NCBI GenBank assembly: GCA_014218215.1
Contig: CP043652.1
Span: 434,001 to 498,000 of the forward strand
Source of the DNA: Geodermatophilaceae bacterium NBWT11
Lineage (GTDB): Bacteria > Actinomycetota > Actinomycetes > Mycobacteriales > Geodermatophilaceae
Direction: 5' to 3'
Length of the DNA stretch: 64,000 bases
The stretch's first letter is position 1, and every line of letters begins with the position of its first letter. A program made the translations under genes and the position numbers. The notes beneath the pieces are model-generated. The model made no database searches and was not told where the DNA came from. It was given only the letters and a program-made list of their open reading frames with translations. Positions 2,588 through 10,031 of the stretch are shown piece after piece.

Positions 2588-3250
2588 TCAGCGGGCCGGC
2601 CGGCGCCGGTAGAGCTGCGCCGGCTTGCCGACGGTCCCCTCCCGCACCTCCCCCGACACCTCGTCCAGGGACGGGAGCATCGCCCGCCGGAACGTGTCCG
2701 CCGAGCGGGGCAGCCGACCGAGCACGGCCTCGTGCACCAGGCGCAGTTCCCGCAGGGTGAACGGCTCGGTGACCAGGCCGGCGGGGTCGGGGTCGGCGCG
2801 GTAGCCGGCGCGGACGTGCTCGGCGGCAAGCATCACGATCGCGTCGTGGTCGAACGCCAGGCCGCGCACCTCGTCGCACGGGCGGTGGGTGACGTCGTCC
2901 GGACGGCGCTCGAGCACCGGCGCCAGCTCGGCCCACGGGACGACGTCGACGTGCGCGACGCTGAGCACCCAGCCACGGCTGTCCCGCGCCGGGTCGTCGA
3001 ACACCCGCAACTGCTCGGGATCGCGTCCCCGGAGACCCACCTTCACCCGCAACGAGCGCTGGACGGCGTCGGCGAGCCGCTCCCCCTCGTGGAGGAAGGT
3101 CCCCGGCAGCCGCCAGGTCCCGTCGTCCGAACGGACCACCAGCACGTCGAGGGTCGACGAGTCCGGCGGGACCGTCAGCACTGCGGTGTCGACCGCGAGG
3201 GACGGGCGCTCGTAATCGGTGAGGGCCTTGCCTGCGGAGTCGAGGTGCAC
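2588..3250 (-). CDS. nrtR: NrtR-type transcriptional regulator (NUDIX + winged helix)
   Basis: A 220-residue protein with an N-terminal NUDIX fold (about residues 15-140) and a C-terminal winged helix (about 150-215, FTLRELRLVHEAVLGRL). This is the architecture of NrtR, a regulator of NAD metabolism whose NUDIX domain senses ADP-ribose-type ligands. The Nudix box is degenerate: around GERLADAVQRSLRVKVGL the catalytic glutamates are replaced by Ser, Val and Lys, so it should bind rather than hydrolyse the ligand. The start is GTG. It is divergent from an ARPP/ADP-ribosylglycohydrolase operon, with repeated half-sites between them, which makes that operon its probable target. Identification of family is firm; ligand is inferred. 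Confidence 0.85.
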   Translation of the reverse strand: MHLDSAGKALTDYERPSLAVDTAVLTVPPDSSTLDVLVVRSDDGTWRLPGTFLHEGERLADAVQRSLRVKVGLRGRDPEQLRVFDDPARDSRGWVLSVAHVDVVPWAELAPVLERRPDDVTHRPCDEVRGLAFDHDAIVMLAAEHVRAGYRADPDPAGLVTEPFTLRELRLVHEAVLGRLPRSADTFRRAMLPSLDEVSGEVREGTVGKPAQLYRRRPAR

Positions 3251-3258
3251 GGCTTGAC

Positions 3259-3315
3259 TTTAGCGCAGAACCCGCCTATCTCTTGTTACAGCGAACTTGC
3301 GCTAACTTGCGCTAA
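3259..3315. promoter_or_regulatory. Probable NrtR operator region: repeated TTGCGCTAA half-sites
   Basis: In the divergent nrtR/ARPP gap, the ten-base word CTTGCGCTAA occurs twice head to tail (3296-3305 and 3306-3315). An inverted half-site TTAGCGCAG lies at 3260-3268. AGCG...CGCT also pairs around 3290-3303. Such a cluster between a NUDIX-wHTH regulator and its neighbour is the expected place for its operator. Binding is inferred. Confidence 0.55.
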
Positions 3316-3334
3316 CTAGAACGGGGTGGTCAGC

Positions 3335-4195
3335 ATGACCCGCATCCGACTGCACGTTGGGCAGGGCACCCACCGCGGCTCCCTCACCGTCTTCCCGGTC
3401 TGGACGGACGCCGCGCCCGTCACCGGCCTGCTCACCGGCGCTGCGGCCCAGGTCGACGTGGTGGAGCGGGCCGGCTCGCCGTCCGTCGACCAGCTCGTCG
3501 TCACCAACCGGACCGAGAAGCCCGTCCTCCTGCTGGCCGGCGAACTGCTCGAGGGCGGCTGGCAGAACCGAACTCTCACAGCGTCCACCGTGCTGGCACC
3601 GGCCACCCCGACGGTGCTGCCTGTGCTCTGCGTCGAGCACGGCCGATGGGGTGGCGGCGAGGCGCACCGCCGCCAGGCGCGCCGGGCACCCGTCGCGCTG
3701 CGGCCCGACCTCGAGCACCCCGATGCTCAGGCCCGGGTGTGGCGCCGGGTGTCCGGCTACACCGCGGTCGCCGGCCCCTCCCCCACCGACTCACTGCTCG
3801 ACCGGCTGGACCGCACCCGTCCCGAGGCCGAGCGCCTCACCGCGGGCCTTACGCCCCTGGCCGGGCAGAGCGGCGTCCTGCTGGGGATTGCCGGCCGACC
3901 GGTGTCGCTCGAGCTCTTCGGCTCCCGCCGGTCCTTGACCGAGCACTGGATGCCGCTCCTCGAGGCAGCCGCCCTCGACGCGCTCGGCCGCCCGGCGGTC
4001 CGGACCACCGCGGCCCTGGCCCGCGCCTTCGCCGAGCGGGTGCAGGGCACCGACCTGACCGCGGTCCGCGGCGCCGGCGCGGGCCGCCGGTACAGCGGGG
4101 GTGGCCGCGTGCGGGTGGACGACGTCCGCTGGCGCGACCGCACCGTGCACCTGAACGCCCTCGACCTCACCCACCCCGTCCTGGAGGCGTCATGA
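3335..4195 (+). CDS. ARPP-1 family protein
   Basis: About 286 residues, resembling ARPP-1 (ARG- and rhodanese-phosphatase-superfamily-associated protein), a family defined by its linkage to ADP-ribosylglycohydrolases. The N-terminus (HRGSLTVFPVW) and the LLLAGELLEGGWQNRT segment near residue 65 fit this assignment. No catalytic role is established for the family; it is thought to act in NAD-derivative or ADP-ribosyl turnover. The ATG at 3335 was chosen because cggggtgg lies a few bases upstream; a GTG at 3326 in the same frame is an alternative. The stop overlaps the next start as ATGA, so the two proteins are coupled in translation. Confidence 0.7.
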   Translation: MTRIRLHVGQGTHRGSLTVFPVWTDAAPVTGLLTGAAAQVDVVERAGSPSVDQLVVTNRTEKPVLLLAGELLEGGWQNRTLTASTVLAPATPTVLPVLCVEHGRWGGGEAHRRQARRAPVALRPDLEHPDAQARVWRRVSGYTAVAGPSPTDSLLDRLDRTRPEAERLTAGLTPLAGQSGVLLGIAGRPVSLELFGSRRSLTEHWMPLLEAAALDALGRPAVRTTAALARAFAERVQGTDLTAVRGAGAGRRYSGGGRVRVDDVRWRDRTVHLNALDLTHPVLEAS

Positions 4196-5577
4196 CCATG
4201 CCCCGCTCGCACCGCGCCGCCGGCGCGGTCATCGGCTCCGCCGTCGGGGACGCCCTCGGCGCCCCGTTCGAGTTCGGACTGGCGGGGCGCTTCTCGGCCC
4301 GATTCCCCGTTGACGCCCGCGGGTCGGCCACGGAGATGTGCGGCGGCGGGTCGCTCGGCTGGGAGCCGGGCGAGTTCACCGACGACACGCAGATGGCCCT
4401 GCTGGTCGCGCAGTCGCTGGTCGAGCGCGGCGGCCTGGACGAGGCCGACCTCTTCGAGAGGTTTCGCCGGTGGGCCGACGCTCCCCCGCCGGACATCGGC
4501 ACCCAGACCCGTGCCGTCCTGGGTTCCGGCTGGCCGTGGGACGTCGCCGCGAGCGAGCACTTCGCCCGATCCGGGCATGCCGCCGGCAACGGCTCGCTCA
4601 TGCGGACGACGCCCGCGGCCGTGTTCTTCGCACCCCAGGGGAGGACGGCGACGATGAACGCCGCGCGATGGATCTCCGCGCTCACCCACGGTGACCCGTC
4701 CGCCGGGGAGGGCTGCGCGGTCTTCCACGAGCTCGTCCGGGTCGCCCTGGACGGCGGGGACCCGCTGGCCGCCATCGACGACGCCCTGGCCGCGGTGGCA
4801 CCCGAGCACCGCGACCGATGGGCGACCGTGTTGGCCCCGGACTGGACGCCGGCGGACGCGACCGAGAGCAACGGCGCAATCTGGCCGACGCTGGGGCAGG
4901 CGTTCTGGGCGCTGCGCGGGGCGACGTCGTTCGCGCAGGTGATGCGCCGGGTGATCGACCTGGGCGGGGACACCGACACGGTCGCCGCCGTCGCCGGCGG
5001 ACTGGCCGGCGCGGTCTTCGGCATCGCCGGCATCCCGATGCGCTGGACATCGGTCGTGCACGGCCGGGTGCCCGGGCACGGCGACCACCAGTGGGACCTG
5101 ACGGACGTGCACGCCCTCACCGCAGGGCTCACCGACGGTTCGACGGCGAGGTACGAGGCGCCGCAGACCCGAGGGATCGAGCCCCGGGAGGTTGCGGACG
5201 GCGTGTGGGCCAGCGACCTGGACGGTGCGCGCCACAGCTCACGGGACTTCGCCGTCGTGTCGTTGTGCCGGACCGGCGAGCCGTTCGGCCACGAAGTCCA
5301 GCGGTTCGCCTACCTGACCGACGACGACGCCAACAGCGAGCTGGACGCCGTGCTCGCCGACGTCCTGGACGACATGGCTGCGCTGCGGGCCGAGGGGCGC
5401 CCGGTGCTGGTGCACTGCTTCGCGGGGCAGTCCCGGACCGGCCTGGTGCTGCGGGCCTGGCTGCGCAGGACCGAAAGTCTGTCGGCACGGGAGGCGACCG
5501 AGCGGGTCGCCGAGACCTGCCCCCACCTGGGGCTCTGGAACGACAGCTTCACCGCCGCGCTCGAGCGCGTGCGCTGA
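4192..5577 (+). CDS. ADP-ribosylglycohydrolase fused to a dual-specificity-like phosphatase
   Basis: A 461-residue two-domain enzyme. Residues 1-300 are an ADP-ribosylglycohydrolase of the DraG/ARH fold, with the metal-binding signatures present: GDALGAPFEFG near residue 18, FTDDTQMALL near 63, GNGSLMRTT near 130 and LGGDTDTVAAVAGG near 257. This fold removes ADP-ribose from modified proteins or small molecules. Residues about 340-455 form a tyrosine/dual-specificity phosphatase-like domain with the P-loop VHCFAGQSRTGLVL (HC-x5-R type). A phosphatase joined to an ARH fold suggests that ADP-ribose release is coupled to removal of a phosphate (e.g. ADP-ribose 1''-phosphate or a phosphorylated target), but the substrate is inferred. 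It starts at the ATGA overlap with the ARPP-1 gene. Confidence 0.85.
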   Translation: MTMPRSHRAAGAVIGSAVGDALGAPFEFGLAGRFSARFPVDARGSATEMCGGGSLGWEPGEFTDDTQMALLVAQSLVERGGLDEADLFERFRRWADAPPPDIGTQTRAVLGSGWPWDVAASEHFARSGHAAGNGSLMRTTPAAVFFAPQGRTATMNAARWISALTHGDPSAGEGCAVFHELVRVALDGGDPLAAIDDALAAVAPEHRDRWATVLAPDWTPADATESNGAIWPTLGQAFWALRGATSFAQVMRRVIDLGGDTDTVAAVAGGLAGAVFGIAGIPMRWTSVVHGRVPGHGDHQWDLTDVHALTAGLTDGSTARYEAPQTRGIEPREVADGVWASDLDGARHSSRDFAVVSLCRTGEPFGHEVQRFAYLTDDDANSELDAVLADVLDDMAALRAEGRPVLVHCFAGQSRTGLVLRAWLRRTESLSAREATERVAETCPHLGLWNDSFTAALERVR

Positions 5578-5593
5578 TCAGGGGAGGGACACC

Positions 5594-5980
5594 ATGAGGT
5601 TGGTCGCGTCATCGGATCCAGGAGCGGTCGCCCGCTGGAACGCGGGACAGCTGCTCGACGAGCGGGTCGTGCTGGCCACCGCAGTGGTGCGAGAGCTGCA
5701 GAGGAGTGGCGGTGCCGACATCGGGGGCAGGTCCCGGGTGGCCCTGGACCTGCTGCGGCGGTGGGTGGGCGAACGCTACAAGGGCGGGGCGGAGACGCAC
5801 GCCCGGGACGGGCTCGCCGACATGGTGGTGCCCGAGGGCTACGAGGACACCATGCGGGAGCTCACGGCGGCAACGGCCATCTGCGAGGCTCTGGCCATGG
5901 CCTGGACGGCAGACACCCAGCGCGAGCTGGACGGCGACATCGCCGAGATTCGCAGCCTGGTGGCGGGCCATGCCTGGTGA
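5594..5980 (+). CDS. Hypothetical small helical protein (128 aa)
   Basis: Not recognised. It follows the glycohydrolase-phosphatase gene by 16 bases with a strong ribosome site (aggggaggga), so it is probably in the same transcript. The protein is predicted mostly helical, soluble and acidic at its C-terminus, with no cysteines in pairs, signal or membrane segment. Its stop lies inside the next small gene, whose ATG precedes it by 8 bases. Confidence 0.65.
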   Translation: MRLVASSDPGAVARWNAGQLLDERVVLATAVVRELQRSGGADIGGRSRVALDLLRRWVGERYKGGAETHARDGLADMVVPEGYEDTMRELTAATAICEALAMAWTADTQRELDGDIAEIRSLVAGHAW

Positions 5981-6101
5981 GGTCGTGCCGCGCTGCGAGA
6001 CATGCTCATCGCTGCAGAGCGGACGTTGCATCGGCCCGTCCCTGCTCAACGGCGCTGCCTGTGGGAAATCAGACGGCCCGATGTGGGAGAAAGACCAGTG
6101 A
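5970..6101 (+). CDS. 43-residue four-cysteine protein
   Basis: A very short gene wedged between two others. Its ATG lies within the last codons of the upstream gene and its TGA overlaps the GTG of the next gene (GTGA). The sequence has CETC near residue 9 followed by single cysteines at about residues 19 and 28, a spacing that could hold one zinc or form disulfides. Double start/stop overlap is the main evidence that it is translated. The family is not recognised; its position suggests an accessory of the nuclease-like protein downstream. Confidence 0.55.
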   Translation: MPGEVVPRCETCSSLQSGRCIGPSLLNGAACGKSDGPMWEKDQ

Positions 6102-6703
6102 AAGAGGACGTGCTGGAGCAGGTCGTCGAGGACTACCTGCAGCTCAACGGCTACTTCACCCGCCACAACCTGAAGTTCCGGCCGTCGAAGACTTTCCCGG
6201 GCTACAGCGCACACGAGCACTCAGTAGCCAGCGACGTAGACGTCATCGGCATTCATCCGCGCCGATCTGGGCCCGATCGAGTCCGGGTCGTGTCGTGCAA
6301 GGCCTGGCAGGCTGGCTTCTTCCCTGCAGCGAAGCTGGCCGAGCTGCGCGAGGAGAAGGCCAACCCCAAGCGGGCAACATGGCGCCACTTCCGTGAGCTG
6401 TGGCGGCCGGAGTGGTCCGAGGCCTTTCGGGATGAGGTCGAGAAGGCGGCTGGTCAGCGCGACTTCCACTACTCCATCGCGGTCACCGCACTCAAGGGTC
6501 CAGGTTCGGATGATCCCACCGCCGCCGCGGCAGTGTGGTCGGCGGACCCGACCATCGCCAAGCATCTGGACGGGTGTTCCTTCAGCTTCCTGACCATGAA
6601 GGACATGTGGGCTCACCTTCAGGCATCACTCACCACCACACCTGCCGCGTCCGAGATCGGCCGGCTGGCCCAATTGCTCCGCGCAGCGGGGGTCCAGGCC
6701 TGA
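6098..6703 (+). CDS. PD-(D/E)XK nuclease-like protein
   Basis: A 201-residue soluble protein. The GTG start overlaps the preceding stop and has gggagaaag upstream. Residues about 10-75 read as a restriction-endonuclease-like core: an N-terminal helix (LEQVVEDYLQLNGYF), the acidic strand SDVDVIGIHP, then RVRVVSCKAW. This matches the D...(D/E)xK layout except that serine stands where Asp/Glu is usual before Cys-Lys. This fold is common in nucleases acting on DNA. The departure from the canonical motif leaves catalysis uncertain. It closes a run of genes starting with the ARPP-1 gene and lies at the left edge of the defence island. Confidence 0.55.
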   Translation: MKEDVLEQVVEDYLQLNGYFTRHNLKFRPSKTFPGYSAHEHSVASDVDVIGIHPRRSGPDRVRVVSCKAWQAGFFPAAKLAELREEKANPKRATWRHFRELWRPEWSEAFRDEVEKAAGQRDFHYSIAVTALKGPGSDDPTAAAAVWSADPTIAKHLDGCSFSFLTMKDMWAHLQASLTTTPAASEIGRLAQLLRAAGVQA

Positions 6704-6777
6704 CCGACCGCTTCGACGGGATCCGGTGGACGCCAACCGCTTGTCACCTGGGTCACCGTTCTGATTGCCTGGGTGGC

Positions 6778-7290
6778 ATGACGGGTGATGCACGGCCGAG
6801 CAATGTGGTCTACGGGGTCTACCCACTGCACGAATCGCTCTGCGTCATCGACAGAGATCGCGCACGGGCATTGAGCGACGCAATTGCGCGGGTGAAGGAG
6901 TGCACCACCATTGGCCAGGCCATGGATCTCAACCGCGAGCTCAGCGCGACGTGGGTCCCGGGTGCGCCCGAGAGCGCGGAGGAGATGGAGGACGAAGACC
7001 TCACTCCGGAGTCGCCGTACTCGTGGGACGACACCGGCGCCGTCCAGGACGGCGACTGGCCGCCCATGCCGACCGCGCTGACGTTGGAGTTGTTCGCGGA
7101 GAGCGACGTCGAGGCGTGGGCTGCGCTGGAATCACCGCCCGTCGGCGCCCGCCGCGTCACGACGACGCTCAACGGCGACTACCTCGAGATCGACCCAGCG
7201 CGGGCGCAGGTGCTCGTCGATGCGCTGAAGGGCTTGGGTATCGACGCCGTCCGCGACGACGCGCTCATCGACACCTTGTCGGGAGAATGA
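6778..7290 (+). CDS. Hypothetical acidic protein (170 aa)
   Basis: Not recognised. The ATG at 6778 was chosen over the long upstream open frame because the upstream part overlaps the nuclease-like gene and reads as shadow. The product is strongly acidic in its middle (residues about 60-85 rich in Glu/Asp) and has no transmembrane segment. It ends in ATGA overlapping the SBD-HNH endonuclease gene, so it should be co-translated with it. A regulatory, inhibitory or DNA-mimic-like partner role is possible from acidity and coupling, but this is speculation. Confidence 0.55.
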   Translation: MTGDARPSNVVYGVYPLHESLCVIDRDRARALSDAIARVKECTTIGQAMDLNRELSATWVPGAPESAEEMEDEDLTPESPYSWDDTGAVQDGDWPPMPTALTLELFAESDVEAWAALESPPVGARRVTTTLNGDYLEIDPARAQVLVDALKGLGIDAVRDDALIDTLSGE

Positions 7291-8253
7291 CGTCTACCGC
7301 CGACGACGTCCTCCGACGTTTCGGAAGCCTGAAACAGCACCGCCGCGACGGCACCCGGTCGCCACACAAACCGCTGCTGGTGCTGCTCGCTCTCGGTCGA
7401 CTGCAGTTAACCGGCAGTTCGGCGGTGCCGTGGTCGATCGCCGAGATCCAACTCGCAGAGCTCATCGCCGAGTTCGGTCCGGCGTCCCGGACATCGCCTG
7501 CGCAGAGTGCCGCGTACCCGTTCACCCGACTCCGAGCGGACGCCGTCTGGCAACTGGACCACGACGTTGCCATGGACTCAGTAGGGCCTCTTCGTCGGGA
7601 GGGAGTCAACGGGTCCTTCGTCCCGGACATCGAGAAGCACCTCCTGTCGACCCCGGCCGCTGTCGCCGAGCTGGCTCGCTCGCTCGCTCGTGGACAGTCA
7701 GTTCCCTGCCAGCATCTCCGACGACGTCCTCACTGCCGTCGGCCTCGTGGAGCTGGTGGAGACAGCCGTCAGCCCGTCGACGAGGCTGCGCCGGCGGGAC
7801 ACGACGTGGCGGATGTCCGTGGTCGAAGCCTGGGATCGGCAGTGCGCGTTCTGCGGTTACGACGGCCAGGTCGCTGGCATCCCGGTGGGGCTCGAGGCGG
7901 CGCACGTTCGCTGGTTTGCCTTCGACGGTCCGGATGATCTGGACAACGGTTTGGCACTGTGCATGCTCCACCACAAGCTGTTCGACCGAGGAGTCCTGGG
8001 GCTTGACGACCAGCACCGGGTCACGGTGTCTGGTTCTTTCACGGCGAGGACCGAGGAGGGCCGACAGGTCTACGGGCTCCACGGCCGTCCTCTGTCCGGT
8101 CGACCCGGTACGCCGCTTCCCGCATCTGTGCACGTCGCGTGGCACAGGGACCAGGTCTTCAGGGGCGCCGCGCTCGCCGCCTGGGAGTCGGCCGACGATC
8201 CGCCCGCCGAGTCCAAGGCATCGAGGACGTCGCGCCAGTCATCGGCATGCTGA
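7287..8253 (+). pseudogene. Phosphorothioate-DNA-type SBD-HNH endonuclease, frameshifted
   Basis: Two frames together make one ScoMcrA-like enzyme. Frame one (7287 to about 7680) is a sulfur-binding domain (SPHKPLLVLLALGRL near residue 25, YPFTRLRADAVW further on), the domain that recognises phosphorothioated DNA in this family. Frame two (from about 7690) carries the HNH nuclease: CAFCGYDG, then LEAAHVRWF, then NGLALCMLHHKLFDRG. The shift falls in a tract of four GCTC units; three units would give a continuous protein. Its C-terminal end overlaps the converging SIR2 gene by 184 bases, so the tails of one or both are probably junction sequence. Intact members cleave modified DNA; no dnd modification genes are seen here. 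Confidence 0.8.
7674..7690. repeat. (GCTC)4 tetranucleotide tract at the frameshift point
   Basis: Four perfect GCTC units plus a trailing G. Removing a single unit joins the SBD frame to the HNH frame without any other change (…ELARSLVDSQFPAS…). This is the pattern of slipped-strand mispairing. Confidence 0.85.
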
Positions 8254-9806
8254 CCGGACGTCGCCCACTTCTCGACCCAGCTCCGCAACTGTGCGAGCTT
8301 ATGAGCCGTCGTGCGCTCGTCGTCGTCCCGGATCAGTGCCGAGTACCTCGGGTCCAGGAGGGTGGCGGTGCCGCGAGCCGCGTGCTGCGCGACGCGGTCG
8401 AGGAACACGTCGAGCTCCCGGGCCGCGCCCACCATCCGGGCCGTGCGCTCATCATCCGTCTCCTCGGCGGGTGCGGCGCCACCGACCGCGAGGTAGCGCA
8501 GCTCCGGCGCCCAGAGATCTGCGGAGAGAGGATCGTCCTGGAGTGTCACAACGGTGCCCAGCTCGGCCTTGCCACCTCGCTTCTCCTTCAGGACCGCCAC
8601 CTCGTGTACGAGCCTGATGACGTTGTCGTCGTTCATGGAGGCGCCCACCACGAACAGGTGGCGGGTCAGCAGCGTGGCTTGCAGGACCGCGGCCAGCGGG
8701 CGCTGCTCGGCGTCGTAACGGACGAACGATCGACGGTCCAGGACGATGGTGTCCGGCTCGCTGGCGTCCCCGTGCAGCTTGAGCAGCCACTGTCGCCAGT
8801 CGCCCTCTGGTTGCTCTCCCTTCGGGAGCAGGACTCGGGGCCGGGCGCCGGTCGCGCTCTCGACGGCGCGTTCGTACAGGTCGTCAAAGTTCGTGGTGAT
8901 CGCGTTGCCGACGTCCAGGGCCGCGAGCAGTGCGTGGCTGAGCGCGAACCGAGGGGGCGTGCTGATCACGTCGGCGACCCGCTCACCCAGCGAACGCGTC
9001 TCGCCGCTCGCTTTGCCGAATGCTCGCCGCAGCACCTCGGCGGCGTCCAGCGGGTTCATGCGGCCAAGTGCTTCAGCTCCGCCAGGAATGCGCACGCCTT
9101 CGGCCAGGCGCGCCAGCAGACCGCTCCAGAGCGGAAGACCAGCCGCGACCCCTGTCCCGGCTCCCATGAAGAGCGCGAGCTGGCCGCGCAGTGCCAGGTC
9201 GCCCAGTCGTCGAGCGTCCTCCTGGAGGTGTTTGGCGAGTCCTCGCCCAGGTGCCCTGCGCCGGAGGGATTGGAGCGCCGAGTAGTCAGAGGCCGCTCTC
9301 GCGACGATGACCACATCCAGGCCGTGCAGTTGGGCTGCGTCCTCGCACGCCTCCAGCAGCTTCTCAACGACTTCACCGCGCTGCCCGTCGAGGCCACCGC
9401 CGTCCACCCCGAAGACTGGTACTGCCACCCGCCTCGGCCGTCCCGGGGTCAGGTGCTCGGCACTCTGGGAAGCGATGGCCTCCAGCACCTCGCGAACGCC
9501 GTCGGCGACCCAGGATGGGCCTGCACTTTGTCGAGACCCGACGGCGAGCAGCCATCGCCCCGGCTCGACACCGGTGCTGGACGCAAGCCGGGTCCACCGC
9601 CCCCGTGCGTCCTCTGGCCGCGCGGCTGACCGGTCTGCTTCAGATGCCCACCCCAACGCGGTCCACCACGACCTGCGTACGCCGGCAGGTCCCCGGCCAT
9701 CTGTGGACACGACGAGGTCATCGCACACGATGCCCTCGACGCTGCTGCGGACGACGAACACGTGACCGGTCACGGCTCCATCATCAGGTCCCGCTCGCTC
9801 AACCAT
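8070..9806 (-). CDS. SIR2-domain protein, probable defence NADase
   Basis: A 578-residue protein with a SIR2-like NAD-binding domain from about residue 215 to 410. Visible signatures are LFMGAGTGVAAGLPLW (GAG glycine motif), AITTNFDDLYE (the Asn-Phe-Asp site), LLKLHGDASEPDTIV (catalytic histidine) and LFVVGASMNDDNV. Defence SIR2 proteins deplete NAD to abort infection. The N-terminal 190 residues (GHVFVVRSS, then VAVPVFGVDGGGLDGQRG) may be macro-domain-like, which would suit an NAD-derived ligand, with low confidence. The ATG has GGAGGG nine bases upstream. The last 40 residues run into the convergent HNH gene and look non-conserved. Confidence 0.8.
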   Translation of the reverse strand: MVERAGPDDGAVTGHVFVVRSSVEGIVCDDLVVSTDGRGPAGVRRSWWTALGWASEADRSAARPEDARGRWTRLASSTGVEPGRWLLAVGSRQSAGPSWVADGVREVLEAIASQSAEHLTPGRPRRVAVPVFGVDGGGLDGQRGEVVEKLLEACEDAAQLHGLDVVIVARAASDYSALQSLRRRAPGRGLAKHLQEDARRLGDLALRGQLALFMGAGTGVAAGLPLWSGLLARLAEGVRIPGGAEALGRMNPLDAAEVLRRAFGKASGETRSLGERVADVISTPPRFALSHALLAALDVGNAITTNFDDLYERAVESATGARPRVLLPKGEQPEGDWRQWLLKLHGDASEPDTIVLDRRSFVRYDAEQRPLAAVLQATLLTRHLFVVGASMNDDNVIRLVHEVAVLKEKRGGKAELGTVVTLQDDPLSADLWAPELRYLAVGGAAPAEETDDERTARMVGAARELDVFLDRVAQHAARGTATLLDPRYSALIRDDDERTTAHKLAQLRSWVEKWATSGQHADDWRDVLDALDSAGGSSADSQAASAAPLKTWSLCHATCTDAGSGVPGRPDRGRPWSP

Positions 9807-10031
9807 GACGGCGGTCCCTCCACGGGGTGGGGCGCGGGCGTCCTGAGCGGCTCTGCACCACAGATTAGATGTCACCCATTCGTGCAGCATTCCTGCCCGC
9901 CGCGAAGCCCTGCCGCCCTGCGTGCACGAGCACAACCATCACCGGCCTCTCACCGCAATCGGCAATCGGGCACCCATCACTGGCTTGACCAACCTGTCTG
10001 GGCAGTACAGCTAGCACCCCGTCCAACGGCG

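Follow-up and report, generated by a model that had tools for sequence, protein, structure and literature searches.

The locus described here lies in a window of 64,000 nucleotides (G000:C1:434001-498000) from the 4.59 Mb genome (G000) of a soil bacterium of the genus Klenkia (Geodermatophilaceae). A divergent nrtR gene is followed by an ARPP-1 gene, by an ADP-ribosylglycohydrolase (ARG) gene fused to a dual-specificity phosphatase (DSP) and by a gene for a protein of 128 amino acids (aa). Together they rather probably represent an NrtR-repressed operon of the ARG type, which borders a variable cargo site on its left. The features, with window positions, are as follows.

2588..3250, minus strand: nrtR-like repressor with a degenerate Nudix domain and an NrtR winged helix (PF21906 33.9 bits, PF00293 24.5 bits).
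3254..3315, plus strand: inferred promoter/operator region in front of ARPP-1, positions counted by eye.
3254-3259 and 3277-3282, plus strand: inferred promoter elements TTGACT and TATCTC, separated by a 17-base spacer, placed by eye.
3260-3267, 3297-3305 and 3307-3315, plus strand: inferred operator sites, TTAGCGCA at the first and TTGCGCTAA at the other two, placed by eye.
3335..4195, plus strand: ARPP-1 protein (PF20208 218.4 bits, E 1.8e-64).
4192..5577, plus strand: ARG fused to DSP, here ARG.DSP (PF03747 217.7 bits, PF00782 (DSPc) 43.5 bits).
5594..5980, plus strand: 128-aa protein of no known family, probably helical, fourth gene of the operon, starting 16 bases after ARG.DSP.
5970..6101, plus strand: open reading frame (ORF) of 43 aa, probably no gene, overlapping both neighbours.
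6098..6703, plus strand: PD-(D/E)XK-like protein of 201 aa with GTG start, apparently separately mobile, joined to the 43-aa ORF by a GTGA overlap.
6778..7290, plus strand: 170-aa protein of no known family, same cassette, shared with two Klenkia relatives at 95% and 90% identity.
About 7287-8253, plus strand: PT-DNA-binding HNH restriction gene (NF045808), spread over two frames, the switch lying near 7690.
About 8070-9773, minus strand: Macro-SIR2 protein, convergent, right end of the shared block (PF13289 72.8 bits; ORF listed as 8070-9935).

Twelve loci of the family were compared (G000, G042, G047, G056, G064, G065, G076, G077, G078, G080, G083, G109), 11 of them taken from a search for ARPP-1 in the genomes of the order and one, G064, added through its SIR2 gene. 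ARPP-1 is matched in 17 of 298 order genomes (16 above the cut-off) and in 13 of 360 class genomes. Outside the family, 12 ARPP-1 loci were compared (L055, L083-L093; one stretch of only 6 kb). Genomes G353, G740, G807, G983 and G1006 were left out owing to weak matches, contig ends or fragmented assemblies. The whole run is also present in K. terrae (L026) and Klenkia sp. PcliD-1-E (L022), which are the same-genus genomes G083 and G080, and three of the six Klenkia ARPP-1 loci, the window counted, are collinear all the way from nrtR through Macro-SIR2. Synonymous divergence (dS) and the ratio of nonsynonymous to synonymous divergence (dN/dS) were estimated by NG86, each from single sequence pairs.

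The core is constant. At all 12 family loci nrtR adjoins ARPP-1 and ARG follows ARPP-1, the ARG copy of G042 being a fragment only. In the window an ATGA overlap joins ARPP-1 to the ARG-DSP fusion, which retains the TDDT, HGD and GGDTDT motifs and the phosphatase loop HCFAGQSR. Like ARPP-1 and the ARG and DSP domains, the NrtR_WHD and NUDIX domains of the nrtR product exceed their Pfam cut-offs; against NF050029 it scores 70.9 bits, far under the cut-off of 400. The catalytic Nudix consensus is REUxEExG. The Nudix box of this NrtR reads RSLRVKVG and, because it departs from that consensus, the protein is probably a sensor without hydrolase activity. Between nrtR and ARPP-1, a promoter-like block TTGAC(A/T)-N17-TA running into TTA(A/G)CGC(A/G) is present at 9 of 11 family loci (G064 lies outside this count; L057 and L058 are without the pattern in that form). 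With this block conserved, control of the operon by NrtR, as proposed in the initial annotation, is plausible. A link of the core to ADP-ribose and defence, proposed there as well, is likewise plausible by analogy, because the same core is predicted as a conflict system (PMC9503650).

Judged by its sequence conservation, the 128-aa ORF is a real, Klenkia-specific gene that belongs to the operon. It stands intact directly behind ARG in four of the six Klenkia ARPP-1 loci (G000, G076, G080, G083), with 73-75% protein identity in K. terrae and PcliD-1-E and dN/dS of 0.05-0.29. A diverged match occurs in G077 (30% over 80 aa) and a C-terminal fragment of the gene in G053, which has no ARPP-1 within the 16 kb read. 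Matches are found in 5 of 112 family genomes, G000 and G053 among them. The protein has no match in Pfam, PADLOC, NCBIfam or PHROGs, nor to a described chaperone family there, and its structure model is poor (pLDDT 45).

The region right of the core is read from sequence comparison as a variable cargo site, because homology breaks just after the 128-aa gene and the nuclease-like gene is found apart from the operon. By BLAST, the left chromosomal flank and the core are common to the Klenkia loci. Homology between the window and G076, which is without the cassette, stops at 5991, 11 bases past the stop codon of the 128-aa gene; with G078 and G077 it stops at 5572 and 5616, at most 40 bases from the ARG stop. 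With L022 and L026 it continues to 9890 and 9846, just past the likely start of the SIR2 gene. Beyond its block, K. terrae DNA on the right finds no more than two matches in G000, each some 45 bases long. A rough global alignment had suggested that neither flank of the nrtR-to-SIR2 block is related; this view was rejected when BLAST showed the conserved left flank. In the comparison with K. terrae, the genes of the window from nrtR through the 128-aa gene have dS values of 0.55-1.10, the nuclease-like gene has 0.27 and the 170-aa gene 0.09, a contrast that points to separate histories. The slot holds a DUF4268 protein and a gene like those of ADP-ribosyltransferases (ART-like, a motif reading) in G078, an ART-like gene and an HD hydrolase in G064, G065, G109 and, with the ART-like gene broken, in G047, an HD protein and a 277-aa CxxC protein in G056, and an HD protein and a 430-aa protein in G042; other contents also occur. 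In G076 a second, fragmentary ARG lies about 15 kb downstream of the intact copy (L098 18243-18759), an arrangement that would fit insertion of the cargo between two copies of ARG.

On its structure model, in which the core fold of PD-(D/E)XK nucleases is present, the 201-aa protein is PD-(D/E)XK-like, as the initial annotation said. E7, D48 and K68 are invariant in eight sequences of the family, and S66 stands at the acid position of (D/E)xK. No Pfam match is above cut-off (Mrr_cat 12.3 bits, cut-off 21). The gene is under selection at the protein level (dN/dS 0.08), and the protein is 89-95% identical in K. terrae and PcliD-1-E. A conserved neighbourhood with ARPP-1 and ARG genes, which the annotation had expected, is not borne out for this gene: all 12 loci read outside Klenkia are without ARPP-1, ARG, nrtR and the 128-aa gene (the weak matches G053 and G441 being left out), 9 of the 12 family ARG loci are without the nuclease-like gene, and the family is carried on plasmids. 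Judged from this distribution, the gene travels separately from the operon. One homologue, annotated as hypothetical, is present on plasmid pMOL30 of Cupriavidus metallidurans (L104, 217696-218316) near HNH, integrase and PD-(D/E)XK genes; the plasmid is predicted to be conjugative. Another is located on a Frankiaceae contig (L023 3-5107), directly behind an apparent type I restriction-modification operon read from translations.

The 43-aa ORF probably does not represent a gene. The four-cysteine microprotein seen in it by the initial annotation is rejected, and a Cys-rich zinc microprotein is not supported: only C12 of the four cysteines is kept in the three Klenkia copies, and dN/dS over the three pairs is 1.46, 0.55 and 0.54, compared with the far lower values of the 128-aa and nuclease-like genes. 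Identity to the copies in the two relatives is 44% and 51%, and the differences are not concentrated at the third codon position. The ORF may be a relic of a longer ART-like cargo gene kept by relatives in the same slot. The middle of the PcliD-1-E copy matches the start of a slot domain of about 180 aa (E 1.4e-4) in a profile search of 3287 translated pieces from seven loci, two of them included twice. This domain occupies the same slot in G047 (broken), G064, G065, G078 and G109; of the 298 order genomes six have it, and in four of these (G047, G065, G078, G109) it lies at ARPP-1 loci. The C-terminal half of the relatives' slot gene bears what may be R-S-E-like ADP-ribosyltransferase motifs, a lead only; searches of Pfam, PDB profiles, PHROGs and NCBIfam gave no support for this identity. 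In G044 (L081 5475-7006) and G093 (L082 7932-9213, ART-like gene partial) the ART-like gene adjoins an HD gene of the RelA/SpoT type, and the stretches read, 14-16 kb, show no ARPP-1, which suggests that the pair is a unit of its own. A DNA repeat downstream of the 43-aa ORF was looked for in the own genome by one pattern search, which gave no matches and says little, because the pattern does not fit the copy of the window itself.

The Macro-SIR2 gene is the recurring feature at the right end. Its likely start, 9773, was set by comparison with relatives. The protein bears TTNFD and KLHGD motifs, and PADLOC gives a ThsA match. Its N-terminal 200 residues match Macro domains in a PDB profile search (macroH2A1, E 3.1e-5; TTHA0132, E 0.019); Pfam names no Macro family at E <= 10 in any of 14 members. 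The gene bounds the cargo site in 7 of the 12 family loci, about 2.5 kb after ARG in the window; it was not seen in the stretches read at the other five, nor at the 12 loci outside the family (one read over 6 kb). The 112 family genomes contain seven close full-length orthologues (at least 50% identity), all seven convergent at the far end of an nrtR/ARPP-1/ARG locus, with differing genes between ARG and Macro-SIR2. Nine short matches (51-59% identity, about residues 576-620 of the query, the tail antisense to HNH) were not counted as close orthologues. Matches of any kind occur in 69 of 112 family genomes, in two of them (G104, G111) by the antisense tail only. More than half of the 112 (e.g. 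L064-L071) have a paralogue of about 40% identity, as a rule in a single full-length copy. It lies at least 75 kb from ARPP-1 or on another contig in G042, G047, G056, G064 and G065, and appears to be a long-standing resident of these genomes and not part of an island. Linkage of Macro-SIR2 to ARG loci is not mentioned in the open-access literature searched. The simplest alternative explanation of the linkage is co-inheritance of one locus.

Between the nuclease-like gene and Macro-SIR2, the 170-aa protein is without a Pfam match. The HNH restriction gene is a single frame in two Klenkia relatives and two frames in the window, which score 80 and 161 bits against the NF045808 cut-off of 180; it is either a broken gene or affected by a sequencing error. 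Right of the locus, from 11563 to 36632, lies a defence island recognised by PADLOC and Pfam, with an HmaA-like helicase (994 aa), a DpdE-like protein, DISARM-type DrmD, DrmMI and DrmA, and a GmrSD-type HEC-05 protein.

The initial annotation described five reading frames opposite nrtR, with ATGA and GTGA overlaps and a 16-base gap. All of these are present in the sequence; the coding run itself does not end at 6703 and continues into the 170-aa, HNH and Macro-SIR2 genes. Its interpretation, that ADP-ribose-type ligands switch on a nuclease effector within one five-gene system in which the 128-aa and Cys-rich proteins would act as adaptors, is very improbable, despite the continuous run with short overlaps, the lack of a terminator-like site in between, the same gene order in three Klenkia genomes (the window counted) and the restriction endonuclease (REase) genes among the variable partners of ARG systems (PMC9503650). 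The 43-aa ORF is without clear protein-level constraint, and operon and nuclease are absent from each other's loci at the frequencies given above. The three added genes had been taken as one extension; only the 128-aa gene goes with the operon, the 43-aa ORF is likely a relic and the nuclease travels on its own. The annotation is partly supported: its observations are mostly accurate, and its interpretation joins unlike things. Some observations weigh against so clean a separation. The nuclease-like gene stands behind the operon in all three Klenkia genomes that have it, so a local functional link may exist there. Its four-base GTGA overlap and the absence of a terminator-like site in a scan of 3150-7340 allow one transcript through the nuclease. 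Between the window and PcliD-1-E, dS of the nuclease-like gene is 0.73, like that of the operon (0.54-0.69), and the dS figures are single-pair estimates. The slot-domain profile gives E values of 0.12 for the K. terrae copy of the 43-aa ORF and 4.7 for the window copy, for which the relic reading is weak. A separate promoter between 5577 and 5594, where only 16 bases are available, was not found by strict scan; the scan found none in 3150-8300 and, since it also missed the conserved ARPP-1 promoter, says little.

Less probable than an operon bordering a cargo site, and doubtful, is a unit reaching from nrtR to Macro-SIR2. In it, the operon would provide control and clean-up for a Macro-SIR2 NADase, and the two halves would enclose a slot for exchangeable effectors; the Macro domain would sense ADP-ribose, SIR2 would consume NAD+ and the ADP-ribose produced would relieve NrtR. 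The convergent position of all seven close orthologues at the locus, while the genes between vary, favours this, as do the Macro domain match and the binding of ADPR by ThsA Macro domains reported in PMC11204291. Common descent of one locus could hold both ends together; the gene is missing from the stretches read at five family loci and all 12 outside the family, lies on the opposite strand and has the widespread paralogue elsewhere in the genome. A further reading for the Geodermatophilaceae, by which operon and Macro-SIR2 would form a two-ended system around an exchangeable slot (nuclease, DUF4268, ART-like and HD genes, others) whose effector is on only during NAD+ consumption, is more tentative and rather unlikely. 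If true, ADP-ribose produced by the Macro-sensing SIR2 NADase would derepress the NrtR operon, whose own enzymes would clear the ADP-ribose again. Improbable, finally, is that the operon serves ordinary NAD housekeeping, borders a defence island and has neighbours without meaning. NrtR proteins studied in PMC6800001 do control NAD genes, and the island to the right has DISARM and Hma-like genes; the patchy presence of the operon (17 of 298 order genomes) and the turnover of the attached genes fit conflict systems better.

Under the preferred reading, that of an NrtR-repressed operon at the left edge of a cargo site, the operon is by analogy probably an anti-phage gene set for handling ADP-ribose. 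The sequence data establish gene content, the breaks in homology, the selection acting on each ORF and the linkage; every biochemical step and any defence role are inferred. When free ADP-ribose appears, whether released by ADP-ribosylated host molecules or through NAD+ degradation under attack, NrtR would leave the TTAGCGCA sites. ADP-ribose would then be stripped from macromolecules by the ARG domain, and the phosphatase and ARPP-1 would process the released sugar phosphate. The operon sits on a chromosomal flank conserved in Klenkia. In G000 and two relatives the cargo to its right is a cassette of the mobile PD-(D/E)XK-like gene, the 170-aa gene, the PT-DNA HNH gene and the convergent Macro-SIR2 gene. 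The nuclease may be expressed through read-through as a second-line effector, and the 43-aa ORF is probably what remains of a cargo gene that occupied this spot earlier.

The nrtR/ARPP-1/ARG.DSP core is of a kind already described. The initial annotation knew of no system with this gene set; section 3.8 of PMC9503650 (2022) predicts ARG-centred conflict systems, repressed until ADP-ribose appears, and lists ARG, rhodanese-phosphatase, a Nudix transcription factor, ARPP, and variable chaperones and REase-fold effectors. The removal of ADP-ribose from host targets and protection from phage are predictions in that paper itself. There, a Nudix or WYL one-component regulator is present in over 42% of ARG systems, a phosphatase is fused to or beside ARG in a little over 55%, and a gene for a peptide-binding chaperone is often present. 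The Klenkia locus shares the central ARG, the NrtR-type Nudix repressor, the fused phosphatase and ARPP, with an HD phosphatase in its relatives. The variable REase-fold effectors may have a counterpart in the PD-(D/E)XK-like model beside the operon, yet the family of this protein occurs outside Klenkia without the operon. As to the chaperone, the 128-aa protein matches no described chaperone family in the libraries searched. The locus differs further by its Macro-SIR2 gene and, in relatives, by the ART-like gene read from motifs only; the authors' search criterion was the absence of a genomically coupled ART or sirtuin. Compared with Mrr/AF1548- and FokI-type PD-(D/E)XK nucleases, the 201-aa protein is alike in predicted fold and in the invariant E7, D48 and K68, and differs in having S66 in place of the (D/E)xK acid; families beyond those listed by the structural searches may fit as well. 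In PMC6800001, NrtR regulons likewise have a divergent nrtR and a likely operator in the common intergenic region; their target is NAD biosynthesis, here it is ARPP-1/ARG, and the half-site here is TTAGCGCA, compared with the mycobacterial palindrome GTTTTCGA-N7-TCGAAAAC. The SIR2 domain is shared with Thoeris ThsA/SIR2 NADase effectors, whose Macro domain (PMC11204291) suggests a possible ADP-ribose sensor; in the Klenkia locus Macro and SIR2 are in one protein, and no TIR/ThsB partner is named by Pfam or PADLOC among the ten proteins of 2588-9935 scanned. Operons of ARPP-1, ARG and NrtR were thus predicted in 2022 to undo ADP-ribosylation by phages, and no experimental test of them was found in the open-access literature searched. 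With the microprotein and the fixed nuclease partner removed as false leads, the Klenkia locus is a compact case whose natural variants keep the core and swap the cargo. Macro-SIR2 is the more telling partner and the main point deserving follow-up, one that the original ARG screen would have set aside. Since it bounds 7 of 12 loci and all seven close orthologues lie there, a link between ADP-ribose and NAD is testable, and the variants together with this partner make it testable whether the core reacts to ADP-ribosylation from outside or to the cell's own NADase.

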